Of a stretch of 64,000 bases of DNA, positions 5,046-41,500 are shown in pieces. Below the pieces are notes generated by a model. It searched no databases. It had not been told where the DNA came from and saw nothing but the letters and a program-made list of their open reading frames with translations. Position 1 is the first letter of the stretch. Every line of letters starts with the position of its first letter. Both the position numbers and the translations under genes were made by a program. Source of the stretch: Dichelobacter nodosus (GTDB lineage Bacteria > Pseudomonadota > Gammaproteobacteria > Cardiobacteriales > Cardiobacteriaceae); NCBI RefSeq assembly GCF_001263335.1, contig NZ_LGVW01000013.1, forward strand, positions 1-64,000, read 5' to 3'.

Positions 5046-6887
5046 ATGCTTAAAAATCAAAATGAAAACCGCCTCGCATTATCGCACGCACTACTTTTTT
5101 ATTCACTGCTGGCGCTTGCCGGCGGCATTTTGCTGCAGCGCATTTTCCCCCAAAACGGCGGTTATTTTTACGGCGCCGGCGTTATCATCATTACAATTTT
5201 TAGCCGTCATAACATTTTATGGCGGCGCGCAATCCTTTATTTTGTTTTACTTTTTTGTTTGGGATACCATCGCGCGCAACAACAATTACCCCAAACCTCC
5301 CAACCTTTTATCTGCCGCGGCACTTGGCAAATCAGCGATTTTCCGCAGCGCAATAAAGGTTTTGGTTACCATTTTCCGCTGCGATTACTTACCGGCGATT
5401 GTCCCCAACTTAATGCCGAGCTCATCGCCAACCATTATCAATCGTCACCACCACCGCTCGGCGCCATTTTTACCGCACCGCTGCAAATCCGCGCCGGCAC
5501 TTTTCGTTATTACACCCATTTAACCACGCCCGATCATCTGCAACCGCCGCCAGCTTTTTCTTTGATGCAGCTTAGAAAAACCCTTCACCAGCGCCTCAAA
5601 CAGCTTTTTCCCGCCGAACAACAACGCTGGCTTAACGCGCTCATCATCGGAAATCAAAACGAATTAACGCGTTTAGACCGCATCATTTTGCAAAAAACGG
5701 GCACCAATCATTTGCTTGCGATTTCTGGATTACATTTAGGCATCGTCATTGCTTTATTTTATTTATTAAGCAGTCGATTAATGAGTTTCTCGCAACGTTT
5801 AACGGCATACGCCGCACCGCGCAGCATCGGCTTAATTGCGGGACTGATTTTTGGCGGCATTTTTGCCTTAATCAGCGGCACGCATACGCCGGTGATTCGT
5901 TCTTGGATTATGTTTGCCACGCTCGCCGGCACATGGTTTTTTCCACGGCTTAATATTCATCATCACAATTTAACTTTAGCGGCGATTTTTGTGCTGATCT
6001 TTGATCCTGCTGCGCTTTTTTCACTCAGCGCGTGGTTATCATTTTTAGCAACGTTAACCGTCATCATCGTAATCACGCGTTGGCGCCACCGTTCTCCGCT
6101 GCAACAATGGCTCGGTTTGCAATGGTTATTGTCATTGATTTTATTGCCGCTGATTTGGGCGGTTTTTGGCGGCATCAGTTTGAGCGGATTTTGGGTTAAT
6201 TGCATCGTGATTCCGCTGCTGGCGCCGTTATTATTGAGCATATTTTTAGGATTATGTTGTCCGTTTTTTGCCGATTTTGCCGCCGCGTTTGTGCAAAATT
6301 ATCTCAATTTCATCACCGTTGCCGCGGACACACCTTTTGCTTATCTCACGCCGAATTGGCAACCGCAAATCATTCCCGCGGCGCTCGTCAGCATCGCTTT
6401 TTTATGCGGATTACTGCGTCATCAGCGATTGGCATTGCTCGGCATAATGATTGCCATCGTTGGACAAATTTATGCCGATTACACCGCACCAAATTATTAT
6501 CAAAGTCCCACGCGCAGCCACGCCCGCATTTTATTTACTCATCAGCACACATTCATCATCAACAGCGGTTACCGCAATCTTTATTACGATGAAGCCGAAC
6601 GTTATTTATTGCCCGAATTGCGTCGCCGCGGTCAAAAACCTGATCAATTGTTATTAACCGATAACCACATCTTTTCTACAACTGCCACGCAAACCCTGAA
6701 AAATGCCTATCCCCACATGGAAATCATCACATTATTTCCCGCAGCAACATTTCCTTTTCCGCATAAAAACTGCACCGCACCCACATTGATTCATCTTCTT
6801 AAAAAACTGGATCAAGCGCCGCCCGATCATAAAACGATAGATGCCCTCACCGAACACATTCTTTTATGCACGCAGCGCAAAAATTAA
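5046..6887 (+). CDS. comEC: ComEC/Rec2-type DNA-uptake channel with degenerate C-terminal domain
   Basis: 613 residues, shorter than the usual ~750 of full ComEC proteins. Hydrophobic helices at the N-terminus are followed by an OB-like region (about 80-150) and the competence domain with the diagnostic [16 protein letters not shown] motif near residue 220 and several further helices. Family members form the inner-membrane channel for single-stranded DNA in natural transformation. Full-length members end in a metallo-beta-lactamase-like domain with an HxHxDH motif. Here the corresponding stretch (about 490-600) keeps only a trace ([34 protein letters not shown]) and lacks the metal-binding histidines. 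Its stop overlaps that of convergent sucB by a few bases. Confidence 0.85.
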
Positions 6888-7909
6888 AGGTCTAACAATA
6901 ATCGCGCCGGCGCCTCAAGCATATTTTTAATCGTTTTCAAAAACAAAACTGCCTCGCGCCCATCGATTAAACGGTGATCATAACTCAACGCTACGTACAT
7001 CACAGGACGAATCACGATCGCACCATTTTCCACCATAGGTCGGTCAACAATTGCATGCATGCCCAAAATCGCGCTTTGCGGCGGATTTAAAATCGGCGTT
7101 GATAACATCGAACCAAAAGTACCGCCGTTGGTAATTGTAAAAGTACCGTCGCTGATTTCTTCCAAAGATAATGAACCGTCGGCAGCTTTTTCGGCAAAGA
7201 TTTTGATTTGCCGCTCAATATCGGCAAAACTCAACGTTTCGGCGTTGCGCAAAATCGGTACCACCAATCCGCGTGGACTCGCAACTGCAATGCCAATATT
7301 GCAATAACGCCGATACACCACATCATCACCATCAATCATGGCATTAATCACGGGAAATTGCCGCAAAGCCGCCACCGCCGCGCGCACGAAAAAGCTCATC
7401 AATCCTAATTTAACGCCGTATTTTTTAACAAAATCATTTTGAAAATCATGGCGATAATTCATCACCGCCTGCATATTGATTTCGTTAAACGTCGTCAACA
7501 TCGCTGTGGTTTGTTGCACATTTAACAACCGTTCGCTGATTTTTTTGCGCAAACGACTCATCGGCACGCGTTCTTCCATCGATAACGGGAAATGCTCTGC
7601 CGCTGACGGTTCGGTAATAACGGGTTCTTCTATTGTGATTTTTTTCGCCGGCGGCACTTCGTGTTGCTGCTTTTGTTCTTCAATACGCGCGATAACTTGT
7701 CCACTGATAACCGTCATACCGTCTTCTTGCAAAATCTCCGCGATAATGCCGCTGACCGGCGCCGGCATTTCCAGCATTACTTTATCCGTTTCCAAATCGA
7801 TTAAATTTTCGCCCTGCTCCACAAAATCCCCAACGCTTTTATGCCAATTCACCAAAATGGCATCAGAAACAGATTCGGGTAAAGTTGGAATTTTAACTTC
7901 AGTACTCAT
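6884..7909 (-). CDS. sucB: Dihydrolipoamide succinyltransferase (E2 of 2-oxoglutarate dehydrogenase), short form
   Basis: 341 residues against about 400 in relatives. The E2 core transfers succinyl groups to CoA in the TCA cycle. A lipoyl domain fills residues 1-77 with lipoyl-lysine K43 in [10 protein letters not shown]. After a 35-residue linker the catalytic domain starts directly ([15 protein letters not shown]) and runs to the end with the active-site [11 protein letters not shown]. The peripheral subunit-binding domain that normally sits between them and docks E3/E1 is absent, with no frameshift to explain it. The start has TTGGAG upstream. It lies 35 bp behind sucA. No lpd (E3) gene is present in the window. 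Confidence 0.92.
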
Positions 7910-7944: not shown

Positions 7945-10698
7945 TTAAGCGCAGGTTAACGCTTGAGTAATAAATGTATTTTGTTCGGCAAGATGTCTTT
8001 TAGCATCGCCAACTGCCGTTGACGCTGAAGCCGCACGCCCAATATAACGAATAGAACGCTCGCTTAAATCGTGCCAGCATTCATAAAGATAACGCCACGC
8101 GCCCTGATTGCGCGGTTCTTCCTGACACCAAATCAATTCCGCCGCCGAATAGTTTTTTAAAATCAAAGCCAAAGCATCAGCCGGAAAAGGATATAACTGT
8201 TCTAAACGAATCAAAGCGATTGTGTGCTCATCTCCTTGCTCGCGCCGTTTTTGCCATAAATCGTAATAAATTTTTCCGCTGCACAAAATCACGCGCCGCA
8301 CTTTTTCCGGATTTTCTATTGCCGCATCATCAAAAACGTTCACAAAAGTTCCTTCCGTCAATGCCGCAATCGGGCTGGTCGCTAATTTATGGCGTAATAA
8401 TGATTTTGGCGTCATCACGATCAACGGTCGGCGCGCGCGTTGATGGAGTTGTTGCCGCAATAAATGAAAAATTTGCGCTGGCGTGGTGGGATTGCACACG
8501 CGCATATTGTGCTGCGCGCATAATTGCAAATAACGCTCCAGCCGCGCGGAAGAATGTTCCGGACCTTGTCCTTCAAAACCGTGCGGCAAAAATAGCGTTA
8601 AACCGCAATCTTGCCCCCATTTGCTGGCGCCGGAACTGACGAATTGATCGATGATCACTTGTGCACCATTGGCAAAATCGCCAAATTGTCCTTCCCAAAT
8701 CACCAATCCTTGCGGTTCAGCGCAGGCATAACCGTATTCAAAGCCCAAAGTTGCCGCTTCGGATAATAATGAATCGATGATTTGCGCGCGGCGTTGATTG
8801 GGCGCAATATGTTGCAACGCGCAATAAGTCGTTTCATTTTTTTGATCATGAATAACTGCCTGCCGATGCGAAAACGTGCCGCGTCCCGAATCTTCGCCCG
8901 ACAATCGCAATGAATAACCTTCCGCCAATAAACTGGCATAAGCCAAATGTTCCGCACAACCCCAATCTAAATCTTGATGACCGTCAACCATTTGCTGACG
9001 ATGAGTCAATAACCGCGCCACGATGGGGTGAATGTTTAACACTTCCGGCGGCGCAAAAAGCCGCGCGCCTAATTGTTGCAATTGCGCGCGCGCCACGCCA
9101 GTTTCGAGCGGCTCCTCAATCGCTGATGTTTCCGCGTTTTGAGTTTCAATTTCTTGCGCCCGCGCTAAAACGTCGCCCCGTTTCAAACGCTGCATATAAT
9201 CCGCAATCAACGCTTGATAATCATGTTCTTGCAGCGCGCCAGCGGCGATTAATTGATTGGCATAAATGCGCGCCGGCGTTTCGTGGCGTTGAATGAGGTC
9301 ATACATTTTCGGATTTGTGATCGCCGGCTCATCGGCTTCATTGTGTCCCAAACGGCGGTAACACACTAAATCAATAAAAATATCTTTGTGAAACCGCAAA
9401 CGATATGCCGCGGCGAGTTGCGCCACAAAAAATACCGCTTCCGGATCGTCACCGTTAACATGAATCACTGGCGCTTGAATGGACTTGGCAATATCCGTGC
9501 AATAAAGCGAGGAGCGGGCATCTGTTTTAGTCGTTGTAAAACCAATTTGATTATTCACCACGATATGAACGGCGCCACCGCAAAAATAACCGCGCAATTG
9601 CGACAATTGCAAAACTTCTTGATTAATACCCTGACCGCTTAACGCCGCATCGCCATGAATTAAAATCGGCACCACTTTATCAGCCGCCGCCATGATCGTC
9701 GCGCCCTCTTTTTCGCTGCAATGTTCTAATTGCGCCCGCGCAAAACCCAGCGCCACGGCGTTTACAAATTCCAAATGCGACGGGTTATACATTAATGATA
9801 ATTGAACGCTTTGCGCTTGATATTGCACCCGCGCCGTAAAACCCAAATGATATTTCACATCGCCATTTATCGGCGCCGCGGAAGCGGTTTGCCCTTCAAA
9901 TTCGGCAAAAATCCGCGCAGCCGGTTTTCCCAAAACGTGCGCTAATACATTTAACCGCCCGCGGTGCGCCATCGCGAGGCATAATTGTTGCGCGCCGTTG
10001 TGCGCTAATTCCATAATTAATTGATTAAGCAAAGGAATTAAAGCATCGCCGCCTTCAAGCGAAAATCGTTTTTGTCCTACGTACCGCTGATGTAGATATT
10101 GTTCAAAACGATCAGCGGCGATTAATTGCGTTAATAATTCGTGTTGTTGCGCGGCGGAAATCGGATATTTGCCGGCATACGTTTCAAGATAGTGATATAA
10201 CCAATCGCTTTCAGTTTGTTCTTCGATGTGGCTGGTTTCCAGCGCGATATGATGGCAATACGTCGCTTTTAACCGCGCCACTAAATCAGCAAGCCGCATG
10301 GTTTTTTGTCCAAATGCGCCGAAAACGGCAAATTCAGTGGCGTAATCGGCGGCGGTTAAACCGTGCGCGGCTAAAGACAATGCGGCAATGTCTTCGGACG
10401 GCGCGTTGGTTAACGGATCAAGATGAGCGTGACGATGACCGCGCACGCGATATGCTCTGATTAAATTTAAAACGCCGATTTGTTTTTGCCCGTGCGCAGC
10501 GTTTTCTTGAACTGATGCGGTTGCGGCATGTTCCGAATGTGTCATAAAAGCAGGCGATGATTGCTGATTGAGGCGCTCAAAATAGTTTTGCCACTGCGGC
10601 GCCACGGAATCGGGTTGCGTTAAATAATGTTCGTATAACTGCTCTAAATAAGCGGCATTTTCGCTGCTGTAAGCAGATTTTTGCGCGGTTTTTGTCAT
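7945..10698 (-). CDS. sucA: 2-oxoglutarate dehydrogenase E1 component
   Basis: 917 residues, close to the ~930 of E. coli SucA, starting after AAGGAAATAGAA. E1 decarboxylates 2-oxoglutarate with thiamine diphosphate and passes the succinyl group to the lipoyl arm of E2. Family features run through the chain: the N-terminal AYLEQLYEHYLTQPDSV helix involved in subunit contact, YRVRGHRHAHLDPL, LAMAHRGRLNVLAHVLGK, the ThDP-binding HGDAALSGQG with VNNQIGFTT, CYRRLGHNEADEP, and the C-terminal transketolase-like portion with GFEYGYA and LPHGFEGQGPEHSS. It is followed directly by sucB. The promoter must lie in or upstream of the tnpA gene, because only 38 bp separate the two genes. Confidence 0.95.
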   Translation of the reverse strand: MTKTAQKSAYSSENAAYLEQLYEHYLTQPDSVAPQWQNYFERLNQQSSPAFMTHSEHAATASVQENAAHGQKQIGVLNLIRAYRVRGHRHAHLDPLTNAPSEDIAALSLAAHGLTAADYATEFAVFGAFGQKTMRLADLVARLKATYCHHIALETSHIEEQTESDWLYHYLETYAGKYPISAAQQHELLTQLIAADRFEQYLHQRYVGQKRFSLEGGDALIPLLNQLIMELAHNGAQQLCLAMAHRGRLNVLAHVLGKPAARIFAEFEGQTASAAPINGDVKYHLGFTARVQYQAQSVQLSLMYNPSHLEFVNAVALGFARAQLEHCSEKEGATIMAAADKVVPILIHGDAALSGQGINQEVLQLSQLRGYFCGGAVHIVVNNQIGFTTTKTDARSSLYCTDIAKSIQAPVIHVNGDDPEAVFFVAQLAAAYRLRFHKDIFIDLVCYRRLGHNEADEPAITNPKMYDLIQRHETPARIYANQLIAAGALQEHDYQALIADYMQRLKRGDVLARAQEIETQNAETSAIEEPLETGVARAQLQQLGARLFAPPEVLNIHPIVARLLTHRQQMVDGHQDLDWGCAEHLAYASLLAEGYSLRLSGEDSGRGTFSHRQAVIHDQKNETTYCALQHIAPNQRRAQIIDSLLSEAATLGFEYGYACAEPQGLVIWEGQFGDFANGAQVIIDQFVSSGASKWGQDCGLTLFLPHGFEGQGPEHSSARLERYLQLCAQHNMRVCNPTTPAQIFHLLRQQLHQRARRPLIVMTPKSLLRHKLATSPIAALTEGTFVNVFDDAAIENPEKVRRVILCSGKIYYDLWQKRREQGDEHTIALIRLEQLYPFPADALALILKNYSAAELIWCQEEPRNQGAWRYLYECWHDLSERSIRYIGRAASASTAVGDAKRHLAEQNTFITQALTCA

Positions 10699-10736
10699 TT
10701 CTATTTCCTTGATAAACGAGTGATTATCATCGTTTT

Positions 10737-11153
10737 TTAATCAAAATCTTCTTGTCTTTCAAGATAGTGTCTGATGATATCCACCGTTTGAACGTCGCCG
10801 TGGGTTAATAAACAATAGCTCCGCGCCCACAAAACGGGTTGCCAATAATATTGCGCTAAATGATTTGCGAATTCTTTACGAATGAGGCGATTGGTCACAT
10901 TTTTTAATTGATTAACCAGACGGCTGGGCACAATATTGGGGTGCAAATCCAACAATAAATGCACATAATCTGGCTCGCCGTGAAATGAGAGCAATTGAAT
11001 ACCCCATTTCTGGCAAAGTTCTTTTACGATCAAATGCAAACGCGTTAACATCACGTCGGTAAAACATTTTTTGCGGTATTTCGTCACCAGCACTAAATGG
11101 TAAGTCAGCTTATAAACGCATTGATGCTGCGCGTTAAATTCCAAATCCATCAT
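10737..11153 (-). CDS. tnpA: IS200/IS605-family Y1 transposase (TnpA-like), altered HUH motif
   Basis: 138 residues, full length for the family. The fold-typical opening (YKLTYHLVLVTKYRKKCF), the central strand and the C-terminal helix with the catalytic tyrosine Y130 and Q134 (IIRHYLERQ) are present. The metal-binding HUH motif, normally HVH, reads Y63-V-H65 (PDYVHLLLDL): a TAT codon replaces CAT, one base away. Y1 transposases cut and join single-stranded DNA at subterminal hairpins. I could not find convincing left and right end hairpins or a tnpB partner. It sits between the galU terminator and sucA on the same strand, with no room for a separate sucA promoter downstream. It is either an inactive remnant or a retained tnpA-like gene. 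Confidence 0.8.
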   Translation of the reverse strand: MMDLEFNAQHQCVYKLTYHLVLVTKYRKKCFTDVMLTRLHLIVKELCQKWGIQLLSFHGEPDYVHLLLDLHPNIVPSRLVNQLKNVTNRLIRKEFANHLAQYYWQPVLWARSYCLLTHGDVQTVDIIRHYLERQEDFD

Positions 11154-11189
11154 AGATATTCAATTGCCCAAAATTGCCTAATTGTACTG

Positions 11190-11220
11190 AAAAAAACCGC
11201 TGGCAAGCAATGACAGCGGT
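11190..11220 (-). terminator. Terminator of the dnaB-alr-radA-galU operon
   Basis: Stem ACCGCTG/CAGCGGT (11196-11220) followed on the minus strand by a run of seven T, just downstream of the galU stop codon. Confidence 0.8.
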
Positions 11221-11227
11221 CGGCAAA

Positions 11228-12118
11228 TTATTCGGTAAAAGAAAGGCTTTGCAAATAAGCTTTAAAATCGCTGCCAAATTGTGGGTGCGCTAAACCAAAT
11301 TCTACGTTGGCTTGTAAATAGCCCAATTTATCGCCGCAATCGTAGCGTTTGCCTAAAAAGCGGTAAGCCAATAATGTTTTTTGTTGAATTAATACGGCAA
11401 TCGCATCGGTTAACTGAATTTCGCCGCCGGCACCTTTTGGCGTGGTTTTTAAAACTTCCATAATTTGTCCGGGCAAAATATAGCGTCCAATAATTGCCAG
11501 CCGCGACGGCGCCACTTCTGGCTCGGGTTTTTCCACCACGCCGGCAATCATGGAAGTGCGTTCATCGAGTTTAGCTGCTTCGGTGATGATGCCGTAACGT
11601 TTTGTATGTTCCGGTAAAATTTCTTGTACACCGATCACGCCTTGTTGATGTTTTTCATATAATTCAACCATTTGCTTCATCACGGGCGCGCCATCTGGAT
11701 TGGCTACCAAATCATCGGCTAATAACACCGCAAAAGGACGATTACGCACCACCGGCTCCGCGCATAACACGGCATGTCCCAATCCCAACATCATTTCCTG
11801 ACGAATAAAAATAACGTTCATATCTTTGGGCTTGATTTGGCGCACCAATTGCAAAAATTCGGTTTTATTTTTCGCCTGCAATTCGCTTTCTAATTCAAAA
11901 GCAACATCATAATGTTCGGTAATTGACCATTTATTGCGACCGGTTACAAAAACCATATTGCGAATTCCGGCATCATATGCTTCTTCAACCGCGTATTGAA
12001 TCAAAGGTTTATCCACCACCGGCAGCATTTCTTTCGGGGTGGATTTTGTTGCCGGCAAAAAACGTGTTCCAAAACCTGCAACTGGAAAAACCGCTAAATT
12101 AATCTTATCCGTTACCAT
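11228..12118 (-). CDS. galU: UTP-glucose-1-phosphate uridylyltransferase
   Basis: 296 residues, normal length. It makes UDP-glucose, a precursor for lipopolysaccharide sugars and other glycans. The nucleotide-binding opening AVFPVAGFGTRFLPATKST with PKEMLPVVDKPLIQYAVEEA matches the GalU signature; VLLADDLV carries the metal-binding aspartates and VEKPEPEVAPS is the conserved sugar-binding segment. The ATG follows GGAGTAAATT, which overlaps the end of radA, so the two genes are tightly coupled. It is the last gene of the operon before a strong terminator. Confidence 0.95.
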   Translation of the reverse strand: MVTDKINLAVFPVAGFGTRFLPATKSTPKEMLPVVDKPLIQYAVEEAYDAGIRNMVFVTGRNKWSITEHYDVAFELESELQAKNKTEFLQLVRQIKPKDMNVIFIRQEMMLGLGHAVLCAEPVVRNRPFAVLLADDLVANPDGAPVMKQMVELYEKHQQGVIGVQEILPEHTKRYGIITEAAKLDERTSMIAGVVEKPEPEVAPSRLAIIGRYILPGQIMEVLKTTPKGAGGEIQLTDAIAVLIQQKTLLAYRFLGKRYDCGDKLGYLQANVEFGLAHPQFGSDFKAYLQSLSFTE

Positions 12119-12121
12119 AAT

Positions 12122-13486
12122 TTACTCCATTAAATATGCCAAAGCCTCGGTTAACGTGGTAGCGATGAGCAATTCCATCGTCGTTTTCACGCGCAAACGA
12201 TTGGCTTTTGGCAAAATCATGCGTTTAAAACCATGCTGTTCAGCGGCTTTTAAACGCGCTTCACCATTTGCCACGGGGCGCAATTCTCCTGCCAAACCAA
12301 TTTCTCCAATCATCACTAAATCACGCGCAATGGGGCGGTGATGAAAACTCGAAACACAGGCAGCTAATACTGCCATATCTGCCGCCGTCTCGCTAATTTT
12401 CAAACCACCAACGACGTTGACGTAAACGTCCATATCATGCATAGAAATGCCGCCGTGTCGATGCAAAACTGCCAATAACATTGCCAAACGCGAACTATCC
12501 AATCCCTGCGTCAACCGCCGCGGATAACTGCTGTTGGTTTTATCCACCAAAGCTTGCACTTCAACCAATAACGCCCGCGTTCCCTCCCAAACCGGCAACA
12601 CCACGCTACCGGCTTGATTTTCCTCCGGACGCGATAAAAAAAGCGCTGAAGGATTAGTAACCGGTTTTAAACCATTGTCTAACATGGCAAACATGCCCAA
12701 TTCGTTGACCGGTCCAAAACGATTTTTAATCGCGCGCAAAATGCGAAAACGGCTACCTACTTCACTTTCAAAATAAAGCACCGTATCAACCATATGCTCT
12801 AAAACGCGCGGGCCGGCGATGGCGCCTTCTTTGGTGACGTGTCCGATTAAGAAGATGGTTGTACCGCTTTTTTTAGCAAAACGTACCAATTGCGCGGTAC
12901 ATTCGCGTAATTGTGAAACCGATCCCGCGGCGGCGGTTAATTGGTCGCTAAATAAAGTTTGAATGGAATCGATTACGAGTACTTTGGGCTGCTCGGCTTC
13001 GGCGGTTGCCAAAATGAGTTCGACTTGTGTTTGGTTGTATAAAAAAATATGTTCTTGCGACAGCCCCAAACGTTGAGCGCGCAACGCAATTTGCCGCGGC
13101 GATTCTTCACCGCTGACGTATAAACACGAGGTTTTCAACGCCAATTGATGCACGGCTTGCAACAACAAAGTTGATTTACCAATGCCGGGGTCGCCGCCGA
13201 TTAAAACCACGCTGCCGTGCACCAATCCACCGCCTAAAACGCGATCAAATTCGCTGATTCCGCTGGGCAAAATCACATCTTGATGAATTTCAATGGCATC
13301 AAGGCGTTGTACGCTTTCCGAAACGATACCGGCATAACCATTGCGCGGCGGTGCTGATGGCGTTTTTGCCGGTGCACGCGTTTCTTCGAGTTGATTCCAC
13401 GCGCCGCATTCATTGCATTGACCTTGCCATTTTGGGTGAACGGCGCCGCAGGATTGACACACAAATTGCGTTTTAATTTTAGCCAC
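12122..13486 (-). CDS. radA: DNA repair/recombination protein RadA (Sms)
   Basis: 454 residues, usual length. RadA is a RecA-like hexameric ATPase that promotes branch migration and is important in transformation and repair. Visible parts: a zinc finger at the start (C10, C13, C24, C27 in CQSCGAVHPKWQGQCNECG), Walker A GGDPGIGKST near residue 96, a Walker B-like VLVIDSIQT, the RadA-specific KNRFGPVNELG motif, and a C-terminal Lon-protease-like domain lacking the protease serine. The start overlaps the end of alr by 8 bp. Together with comEC and recA in this window it fits a naturally competent organism, which is inference. Confidence 0.95.
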   Translation of the reverse strand: MAKIKTQFVCQSCGAVHPKWQGQCNECGAWNQLEETRAPAKTPSAPPRNGYAGIVSESVQRLDAIEIHQDVILPSGISEFDRVLGGGLVHGSVVLIGGDPGIGKSTLLLQAVHQLALKTSCLYVSGEESPRQIALRAQRLGLSQEHIFLYNQTQVELILATAEAEQPKVLVIDSIQTLFSDQLTAAAGSVSQLRECTAQLVRFAKKSGTTIFLIGHVTKEGAIAGPRVLEHMVDTVLYFESEVGSRFRILRAIKNRFGPVNELGMFAMLDNGLKPVTNPSALFLSRPEENQAGSVVLPVWEGTRALLVEVQALVDKTNSSYPRRLTQGLDSSRLAMLLAVLHRHGGISMHDMDVYVNVVGGLKISETAADMAVLAACVSSFHHRPIARDLVMIGEIGLAGELRPVANGEARLKAAEQHGFKRMILPKANRLRVKTTMELLIATTLTEALAYLME

Positions 13487-38589: not shown

Positions 38590-41500
38590 GATTTTCTCCC
38601 GTGATATCGTTGGCATGCGGTTTTAACGTTTGGATTTTATCCGTTAACGTTTGTAATAATTCAGTAAATGCGCGTTCAAATTGAGCAATGCCATCAAGCG
38701 TTAATTGGCGCGTAACGGCATCTAAATCAATGCCAGCATCTTCAATATTGCGTAACGTTTGTTGCGCTTGTTCAATATTTTTCAATAAAGTAGCGCTGAC
38801 GCGTCCGTGATCTTTAAATGCGGCATACGTTTCCGGCGGAACGGTGTTTACCGTATCGGCGCCGATGAGCATATCAATGTAACGCGTATCAGCGTAATTT
38901 GGATTTTTGGTGCTGGTTGATGCCCACAATAAACGTTGCACCGCGGCGCCTTTTTGTTGCAATTCAATCCAATCATCGTGGCTGATGCGTTCCAAATAAT
39001 AAAGATACGCCGCCTGTGCATTGGCAACCGCCGTGCGTCCGCGCAAATGAGCGTGCGCATCATCGAGCAACGCATCGATTGCCGTATCCACGCGGCTGAC
39101 AAAAAAGCTTGCCACCGAACGAATGCTATCAATCGTTTGACCGTTTTCAACGCGCCGTTTCAAACCGTCAATATACGCTTCCAAAACGCGCTGATATTGC
39201 GCCAGTGAAAAAAGTAAAGTCATATTGACGTTAATGCCTTGTGCGGTCAGTTCCGTTAATGCCGCACAACCGGCATCGGTGGCAGGAATTTTAATCATGA
39301 GATTTTGCCGCGCGACGCGTTGTTGTAATGATAACGCTTCCGCAACCGTTGCCGGCGCATCGTGCGCTAAATGCGGCGAAACTTCCAAAGAAACCATGCC
39401 ATCGGTGCCGTTGGTTTTTTCAAAAACCGGCTGCATCAGATCGCAAGCTTGTTGAATATCTTCAATCGCCAACGCATAAAATGCCGCTTGCGCGTCGCCT
39501 TCATGATGTTCTAACCATGCGCTTAATGCGGCATCGTAATCACGAGTACGGCTAAACGCTTTTTGGAAAATCGCAGGATTTGACGTGATGCCGCGCAAAT
39601 CGTCTTCCTCAATTAAACGTTGCAACGTACCGCTTTGTAATAACGCGCGATCGATATTGTCATACCAAATACTTTGTCCCAATTTAGTAACCGCATGAAT
39701 ATGAGAGACTTTCTCCGACGCGGTTTCGGCAACCGTTTTTTGTTCTTTTTCCGCCGGCGCGGTTTCGGCAACGCTTTCTTGCTCTTTTTCCGCCGGCGCG
39801 ATTTCCGCAACGCTTTCTTGCTCTTTTTTCACTGGCACCGGCAACGGTTCTCCAATCGTTTCTTGTTCTTTTTCCGATAACGCTGTTTCTAAAATTTCCG
39901 CTTGTTCTGACGATGCATCATCGTGTTCCTGCATAGATTGCGGCTCATCGATATCATCTTCATCAGCGCTAATTGGTGCATTTTCAGTTTCTAAAAAAGC
40001 AACTAATCCCGGCGCTTGATGCACTTTCGGCGGCACAAGCGTTGCATTATTTTCCGTTAAAACGGTTTCAGCGTTCACTTCCGGCGATTTGTTATCAGAA
40101 ATGCGTTCATTTTTAACATCATGATGCGCGACGGTTTCAGTTCGTTTAAGTTCATCGCTTGATTGCTCAAAATCTGGCATCGTTTCCGGCGCTTTACCTT
40201 GCCCACGCACCGCGTGCACATCGCGCGGACGTCCTTTGCGCACTTCGCGACCATTTTTTGATTCAACGGGGTGCAGCAATTCTTCCAAACTGGGATTGAC
40301 TTCATCATCATTTTCCATTTTTGCCGCTTTGGGCGTGGGTTTTGCATGATGTTTGTCGTGATCGTCGCTTTTTTCTTTACGTTTAACGTTGGCGCCGTTT
40401 GCGGGCGTTGACTCATGCGTTTGAACGGTTGACGCTTCGGGCGCCGGCGTAACAATGGGTTTTTCACGCACCGGTTGCGCGGTTTCTTCGTGATGAACGT
40501 TTTTGGACGTGGGCGTTACAGATTCGTTAATCGTTTGTTTTTCTTCTTTTTTATGCAATACTGCGTCAACCGTATGACCGTTATGACCTTCTTTGAATAA
40601 CGCCACCACTTTCGAAAATAAAGCCGATAAACCAGATTTAACAACCGCGGCGCCCCCTTTTGCTTGCGGAACCGGCGTTTGCGGCATAATGCTGGAAACC
40701 ACCGGCGCTTCTACGCGGTCATCTTTCGGGCGCAAAATCGGCATTTCTTCGCTATTGTGCTGATGATTAACCAATCGATAACTGGGCACCGCGCTCATTT
40801 CTTCATTCATTTCATCATCGCGAAAGCGCTCAATGAAATAATCGGGAGAATGTAAATGTGGATTAATCGTCAACACGATATCAACGTGATTTCTCTTTTC
40901 AATTGATTGAATTACTGAACGTTTTTCATTTAATAAAAAGGTGGCAATATCAACCGGCAATTCGCCAGTAATTCGGCGCGTGCGATCTTTCATCGCTTCT
41001 TCTTCAATCAAACGCAACAGCGATAACGCCTGCGATTGAATGCCGCGAATACTGCCCTGCCCTTTGCAGCGCGGGCATACTTGATGACTGGCTTCATCAA
41101 TTGAAGCGCGCAATCGTTGCCGCGACATTTCCAATAAACCAAAACGCGAAATTCGTCCAATTTGAATGCGCGCGCGGTCAATTTTGGTCGCATCGATTAA
41201 ACGTTGTTCAACATCTTTGCGGTTGCGGCTAACGTCCATATCAATAAAATCAATGACGATTAATCCGCCAAAATCGCGCAATCGCATTTGACGCGCAATT
41301 TCATCAGCAGCTTCCAAGTTGGTTTGATACGCAGTTTCTTCAATATCGCAGCCTTTCGTAGATTTTGAAGAGTTAATATCGATAGAAACCAGCGCTTCCG
41401 TATAATCAATAACCAATTCGCCACCAGACGGCAATTTCACATTGCGCTGATAAGCCGTTTCAATTTGTCCTTCGATTTGATAGCGCGTAAACAGCGGCGT

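Follow-up and report, generated by a model that had tools for sequence, protein, structure and literature searches.

An orphan IS200/IS605 tnpA with tyrosine for the first HUH histidine between galU and sucA of Dichelobacter nodosus: probably an immobile relic

Between galU and sucA of Dichelobacter nodosus stands a solitary transposase gene of the IS200/IS605 family (subclass 1.1 type), called orphan tnpA below, which we read as probably an immobile, cleavage-deficient relic that has lost its element ends, its tnpB, and one ligand of the catalytic metal, and that was inactivated late, after a long residence in the host line. The gene lies in the 64,000-nucleotide stretch analyzed here (the window), as a 138-aa open reading frame with an ATG start, and the features on which the argument depends are these, in the order in which they are met along its strand:

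11228..12118, minus strand: galU, 296 aa, upstream neighbor
11190..11220, minus strand: hairpin and T-run, probable galU terminator, upstream of tnpA
10737..11153, minus strand: orphan tnpA, 138 aa
10974..10976, minus strand: codon 60, Glu, placed by alignment at the IS608 metal ligand Asp61
10965..10967, minus strand: codon 63, TAT, Tyr (His in 87 of the 89 distinct proteins of full length)
10959..10961, minus strand: codon 65, His, second HUH histidine, retained
10788..10799, minus strand: codons 119-122, Gly-Asp-Val-Gln, one extra residue included; Gly-Gly-Ala in most relatives
10764..10766, minus strand: codon 130, TAT, catalytic Tyr, retained (89 of 89)
10752..10754, minus strand: codon 134, CAA, Gln metal ligand of the Y---Q motif, retained (88 of 89)
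10699..10736, minus strand: 38-bp gap between tnpA and sucA, with a possible -10 box GATAAT, a weak inverted repeat, and the ribosome-binding site AAGGA
7945..10698, minus strand: sucA, 917 aa, downstream neighbor

The product matches Pfam PF01797 over the entire profile (positions 1-121 of 121; 134 bits, E 3.4e-39) and scores 120.5 bits against the NCBIfam model of IS200/IS605 transposases, NF033573, for a cut-off of 55. Its motif is Glu60-Pro-Asp-Tyr63-Val-His65, that is, DYVH, a YUH instead of an HUH, and so departs from the consensus DH[VI]H listed for IS200/IS605 TnpA in Table 1 of PMC6006769; the catalytic tyrosine with glutamine at +4 is present (Y130, Q134). An earlier note on this DNA had named Tyr63 (TAT) as the replacement of the first HUH histidine and Y130 as retained, and it was right on both counts, residue numbering included. 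In IS608 TnpA H64, H66, D61, and Q131 coordinate the metal, according to a passage of PMC5934647, and on that set of ligands three of the four that the protein contributes remain, by position, in orphan TnpA. With His63 gone from a site built of two HUH histidines, an Asp, and a Gln, metal coordination would be incomplete, and cleavage of single-stranded DNA by Tyr130 is expected to be weak or absent.

The surroundings of the gene also differ from those of its relatives. Among 11 annotated plasmid relatives, a divergent gene directly precedes tnpA in nine, annotated as TnpB in six and simply as "transposase" in three, and is absent for two (L034 and L037), and a hairpin ATCTCCA...TGGAGAAT, with small differences, follows tnpA in the seven close relatives examined there. 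Neither feature was found near orphan tnpA, in agreement with the earlier note, which had seen no end hairpins and no tnpB. The closest match to the end motif ATCTCCA...TGGAGAAT with at most two mismatches falls within the next-but-one gene, at 12278-12290, and the window as a whole holds seven such matches, where 9.6 would be expected by chance, and none to the other arm of the motif; a strongly diverged end could have escaped this search. The sole tnpB-like match in the window is weak and distant (41106-41222, E 0.23). Folding scores do not help in this matter: over the 80 bases that follow tnpA, orphan tnpA ranks 44th from the weakest of 87 in hairpin z-score, and these scores fail to separate intact elements from the orphan gene; the loss of the ends is judged by the missing sequence motif. 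Within 10650-11240, the stretch covered by a scan for repeats, a weak inverted repeat TTGAT...ATCAA lies around the tnpA stop and the gap (10699-10760; z -2.2, with 5 of 200 shuffles as good); it shares no motif with the ends of the relatives and has the ribosome-binding site of sucA directly behind it. With its ends gone, the gene would have nothing left to move in cis.

Sister copies were sought in the 1.45-Mb genome (36 contigs), as the earlier note had proposed, and no near-identical one was found, the best other copy being 64% identical. Counted at E values up to 0.001, PF01797 matches amount to four copies including orphan tnpA, none of which is an intact HUH TnpA, and this general state of the family in the genome speaks for a relic. 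L001 (1462-1878) is full-length, with the second HUH histidine changed (His-Val-Tyr), and adjoins a divergent, full-length tnpB of 381 aa (272-1417). L003 (366-1857) lacks the N-terminus of tnpA and carries internal stops, with two TAA codons in the table of profile matches and one in the stretch read for codon analysis, beside an open tnpB of 375 aa; together with L001 it shows a defective tnpA accompanied by a tnpB whose frame has remained open. L004 (241-1672) nearly repeats L003 in truncated form (99% identity across 1,432 bases), and in it the tnpA match stops after 57 residues, near the contig end. A 3,342-bp stretch of L003 also recurs at 100% identity in a viral contig of IMG/VR, IMGVR_UViG_2654587739_000002 (L148). 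Elsewhere the genome encodes a type IV pilin that matches PDB entry 3sok, the FimA of D. nodosus, at 223 bits, with the second-best entry at 63 bits.

The meaning of Tyr63 depends on how often it occurs and in what company. Relatives were gathered by patterns drawn from the C-terminal half of the protein only, so that the HUH motif had no influence on which were chosen, and were supplemented with plasmid matches and genome loci found through the whole orphan protein and with L210, which was collected through an HUH pattern, a pull of the motif on the selection being possible in these additions. The 105 full-length matches reduce to 88 distinct proteins, 89 with orphan TnpA, and among these His occupies position 63 in 87 and position 65 in 86, the remainder having Tyr (two and three proteins, respectively), Tyr130 is invariant, and Gln134 is present in all but one (88 of 89). 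The only other full-length protein with Tyr63, L135 from Azospirillum oryzae, carries K25N and Y26D at near-invariant places, and the frames of two more copies with Tyr63, L099 and L209, are broken as judged by eye; all three look damaged. In L135 (1045-2719) a divergent tnpB-like frame of 411 aa is still present beside the Tyr63 tnpA. A class-wide sample of 143 genomes yielded 62 matches, spread over 29 of them; of the 60 loci examined, 12 were unreadable, mostly REP-type or fragments, and 48, some of them multiple copies from one genome, had a motif that could be read by HMM, being His/His in 44, His/Tyr in L001, His/Pro in L217, Gln/His in L262, and frame-shifted in L016.

Taken over all losses of an HUH histidine that came to notice independently of the change itself, a tally that omits orphan TnpA, L209, and PDB entry 2fyx (noticed for their Tyr) as well as the frame-shifted L016, the replacement is Tyr in six of eight (L099, L135, L001, L119, L132, and L171, the last internally deleted), Pro in one (L217), and Gln in one (L262). 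These counts, together with the Deinococcus radiodurans protein DR_0177 (2fyx), mark the loss of one HUH histidine as a sporadic, recurring change that is often seen in damaged copies. The predominance of tyrosine, in some cases within full-length frames, and the retained fold of 2fyx, itself a YUH protein, are what could be said for an enzyme that is still active in trans, with Tyr63 as a metal ligand or the site dispensable; yet this is very improbable, given that neither a near sister copy nor, in the window flanks, any end was found, that Pro and Gln at the two other losses are what random decay predicts, that the other Tyr63 genes look damaged, and that a 2018 survey of the family counted as likely active only sequences with both the HUH and the Y motifs (section 8 of PMC6006769). 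Tyrosine as the sole tolerated replacement, an idea that held in the first samples, was ruled out by the Pro and Gln of the class-wide sample. Tyr63 was likewise rejected as the mark of a conserved YUH subfamily: the pattern DYUHL occurs in 6 of 349 genomes and belongs to a TnpA in only two of them, orphan TnpA itself and L209, whose C-terminus is broken; DHUHL occurs in 27, a ratio that is rough, since just two of the DHUHL matches were read, of which one proved to be a TnpA and the other a chance occurrence, and since a reversed-pattern control also gave a few. Peptide-pattern scans of genomes and viral contigs with orphan TnpA alone as the query confirmed no relative.

At the level of the fold, an AlphaFold2 model built with 54 aligned relatives (alignment A3) has a pLDDT of 84.5, with low confidence for residues 121-138, and in VIA-align it ranks first with ISDra2 TnpA (2xma; Z 18.0, rmsd 1.7 over 122 residues), followed by IS608 and other family members at Z of about 15-17 (2fyx, 15.7). 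Tyr63 is thus compatible with the fold; on activity the model is silent.

Whether the protein has been decaying or has been kept was approached through its residues and its codons. At 26 near-invariant positions (conserved in 90% or more of the other proteins) orphan TnpA differs at four, H63Y, S88N, G120D, and A121V, each of which would fit a single C:G to T:A transition, the direction being judged from the codons. Ten other proteins with a nearest-neighbor identity of 0.55-0.66 mostly carry fewer such changes (0-2 in eight, three in one, four in one); four or more are found in 8 of the other 88 proteins, so that orphan TnpA is not exceptional in itself. The frame has neither a stop nor a frameshift. 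In a codon branch model of 16 chosen taxa and 132 codons, where the placement of orphan TnpA is weak (support 0.18 and 0.97 at the two surrounding nodes), its branch has an omega of 0.021, which differs from 1 (2 delta lnL 28.5) and does not differ from the background of 0.069 (2 delta lnL 1.7); as the branch length is saturated (7.3), this value reflects most of the history of the lineage and not the time since Y63 arose. The control L034, an HUH relative on a long branch, gave 0.089 (18.5 against 1), while the broken copy L003 (0.16; 3.3 against 1) and L068 (0.17; 0.8 against 1) are short branches with little power. Scored against a codon-usage reference of 37 window ORFs with lengths of 200 aa or more (16,340 codons), orphan tnpA reaches 0.192, which exceeds the score of 27.6% of 98 host-gene pieces, compared with 0.129 (13.3%) for the tnpA of L001 and -0.144, below all pieces, for that of L003; among the 89 genes it ranks first, ahead of L001 and L163, both at 0.129.

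Host-like codon usage and low omega together suggest that the gene has probably resided long in the host line while its protein sequence was protected from change, any loss of constraint being recent, and this is the outcome expected both of a resident insertion sequence that died lately and of a domesticated protein. The domestication view holds that a non-cleaving TnpA was kept for binding hairpin single-stranded DNA (or RNA), for instance at a site in the host or within its own operon, the loss of His63 having removed a harmful cleavage activity, and it has a precedent in TnpA-REP, described as a domesticated relative in part of PMC8266576. It would account well for what sits least comfortably with a relic, namely the open frame, the omega of about 0.02, and the most host-like codon usage of the 89, all of which are expected if the protein is used, and the core fold is intact in the model. 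Against it stand the low omega of an ordinary long branch (L034), the changes at residues 120 and 121, just before the catalytic helix, the fact that no genomic target was identified, and the distribution of the locus described below; we consider it rather unlikely. Its more specific form, in which a hairpin-binding Y1 transposase has kept fold and sequence, has had the ligand removed, and forms one unit with sucAB, we hold to be unlikely also, and a shade more so. We prefer the relic in view of the altered catalytic residue, the missing ends and tnpB, and the absence of this locus from the related genomes searched; the frame would still be open on account of a late inactivation. In outline, an ancestral IS200/IS605-type element would have stayed in the host line long enough to acquire its codon usage, lost its ends, its tnpB, and one metal ligand, and left a gene that may now do little, at most being co-transcribed with sucAB.

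That distribution was examined in 11 other genomes of the family, among which there was no second genome of the host genus: none has a tnpA relative near galU or sucA, and the single relative found (G006, 30% identical) is on a contig other than those of its sucA and galU. The two neighbors are themselves apart in these genomes, on the same contig at a distance of at least 495 kb in three and on different contigs in eight. In other taxa, a check of the neighbors of 236 loci of tnpA relatives gave one partial galU match (L085; 46.7%, 75 aa) and no sucA. The suggestion of the earlier note that this could be a conserved protein with another role thus gains something from codons, omega, and an undamaged frame and loses on distribution, and its other suggestion, a dead insertion, is the better supported half, given the lost ligand, the ends and tnpB that were not found, and the lack of near sister copies.

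Transcription is the remaining point of contact with sucAB. The three genes galU, tnpA, and sucA lie on the same strand, and the distance of 38 bp between tnpA and sucA is as the earlier note gave it (10699-10736); its claim that transcription of sucAB probably passes through tnpA is unproven, with a probable galU terminator upstream and a -10-like GATAAT in the gap. The region of the terminator hairpin has a folding z of only -1.4 against shuffles, and the hairpin is absent from the output of a terminator scan limited to loops of 3-8. A promoter scan of 10500-11400 gave two overlapping matches at the end of galU, before the hairpin (11255-11227), against 2.6 expected, no more than chance, and none in the 38-bp gap, where GATAAT has no acceptable -35; in at least 7 of the 11 family genomes, by eye, a TATTATA- or TATCATA-like box lies tens of bases before sucA. 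Shared strand, short gap, and a probable terminator just upstream would suit a tnpA stretch that serves sucAB only as a transcribed and translated leader or as a source of RNA, and an IS200-derived regulatory RNA is known from the 5' end of Salmonella IS200 tnpA (PMC12594629). Such a role is nonetheless quite unlikely, as the promoter matches are at chance level and precede the hairpin, GATAAT may drive sucA directly, and conservation of the amino acids would not be required. Further downstream, a convergent pair of frames, 5046-6887 (plus strand) and 6884-7909 (minus strand), overlaps by 4 bp at the stops; to judge from a look at the sequence, one is sucB-like and the other, of 613 aa, ComEC-like.

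As a kind of gene this is probably nothing out of the ordinary, and its one loose end is how unusually well it has been preserved. If the gene is dead, it adds one more to the insertion-sequence genes that have decayed and warns against reading mobility into a "tnpA" annotation; if it is kept, it would be a transposase domesticated through the loss of its chemistry, and an insertion-sequence relic linked to a TCA-cycle operon. Nuclease-dead derivatives of TnpB exist, and a kept TnpA of this kind would be their parallel at the protein level.

Among known systems, the nearest are the subclass 1.1 IS200/IS605 TnpAs, such as those of Moraxella, Acinetobacter, Photobacterium, and Shewanella, which share its length, full PF01797 match, and Y---Q motif, with up to 63% identity in alignment A3; orphan TnpA differs from them in having YUH for HUH, no ends found, no divergent tnpB, and no near sister. 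DR_0177 (2fyx) has Tyr-Val-His at the same position, and, although closely related to ISDra2 TnpA (2xm3), which has His-Val-His, it belongs to another branch of the family, 35% identical to orphan TnpA in the structural alignment; a literature search returned no work on its activity, and titles and the beginnings of abstracts on the insertion sequences and transposases of the species, and on inactive or HUH-changed Y1 transposases, contained nothing on this locus. TnpA-REP proteins (RAYTs) are, like orphan TnpA, solitary Y1 proteins without a surrounding insertion sequence, but they combine Y---NP with HUH (Table 1 of PMC6006769), whereas orphan TnpA combines Y---Q (YLERQ) with YUH, lacks the Y---NP signature, and scores 20.5 bits against the REP model NF047646, whose cut-off is 80. 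The Salmonella IS200 5'tnpA RNA likewise stems from an immobile IS200-type gene kept by its host; there, as PMC12594629 describes, the RNA is the product.
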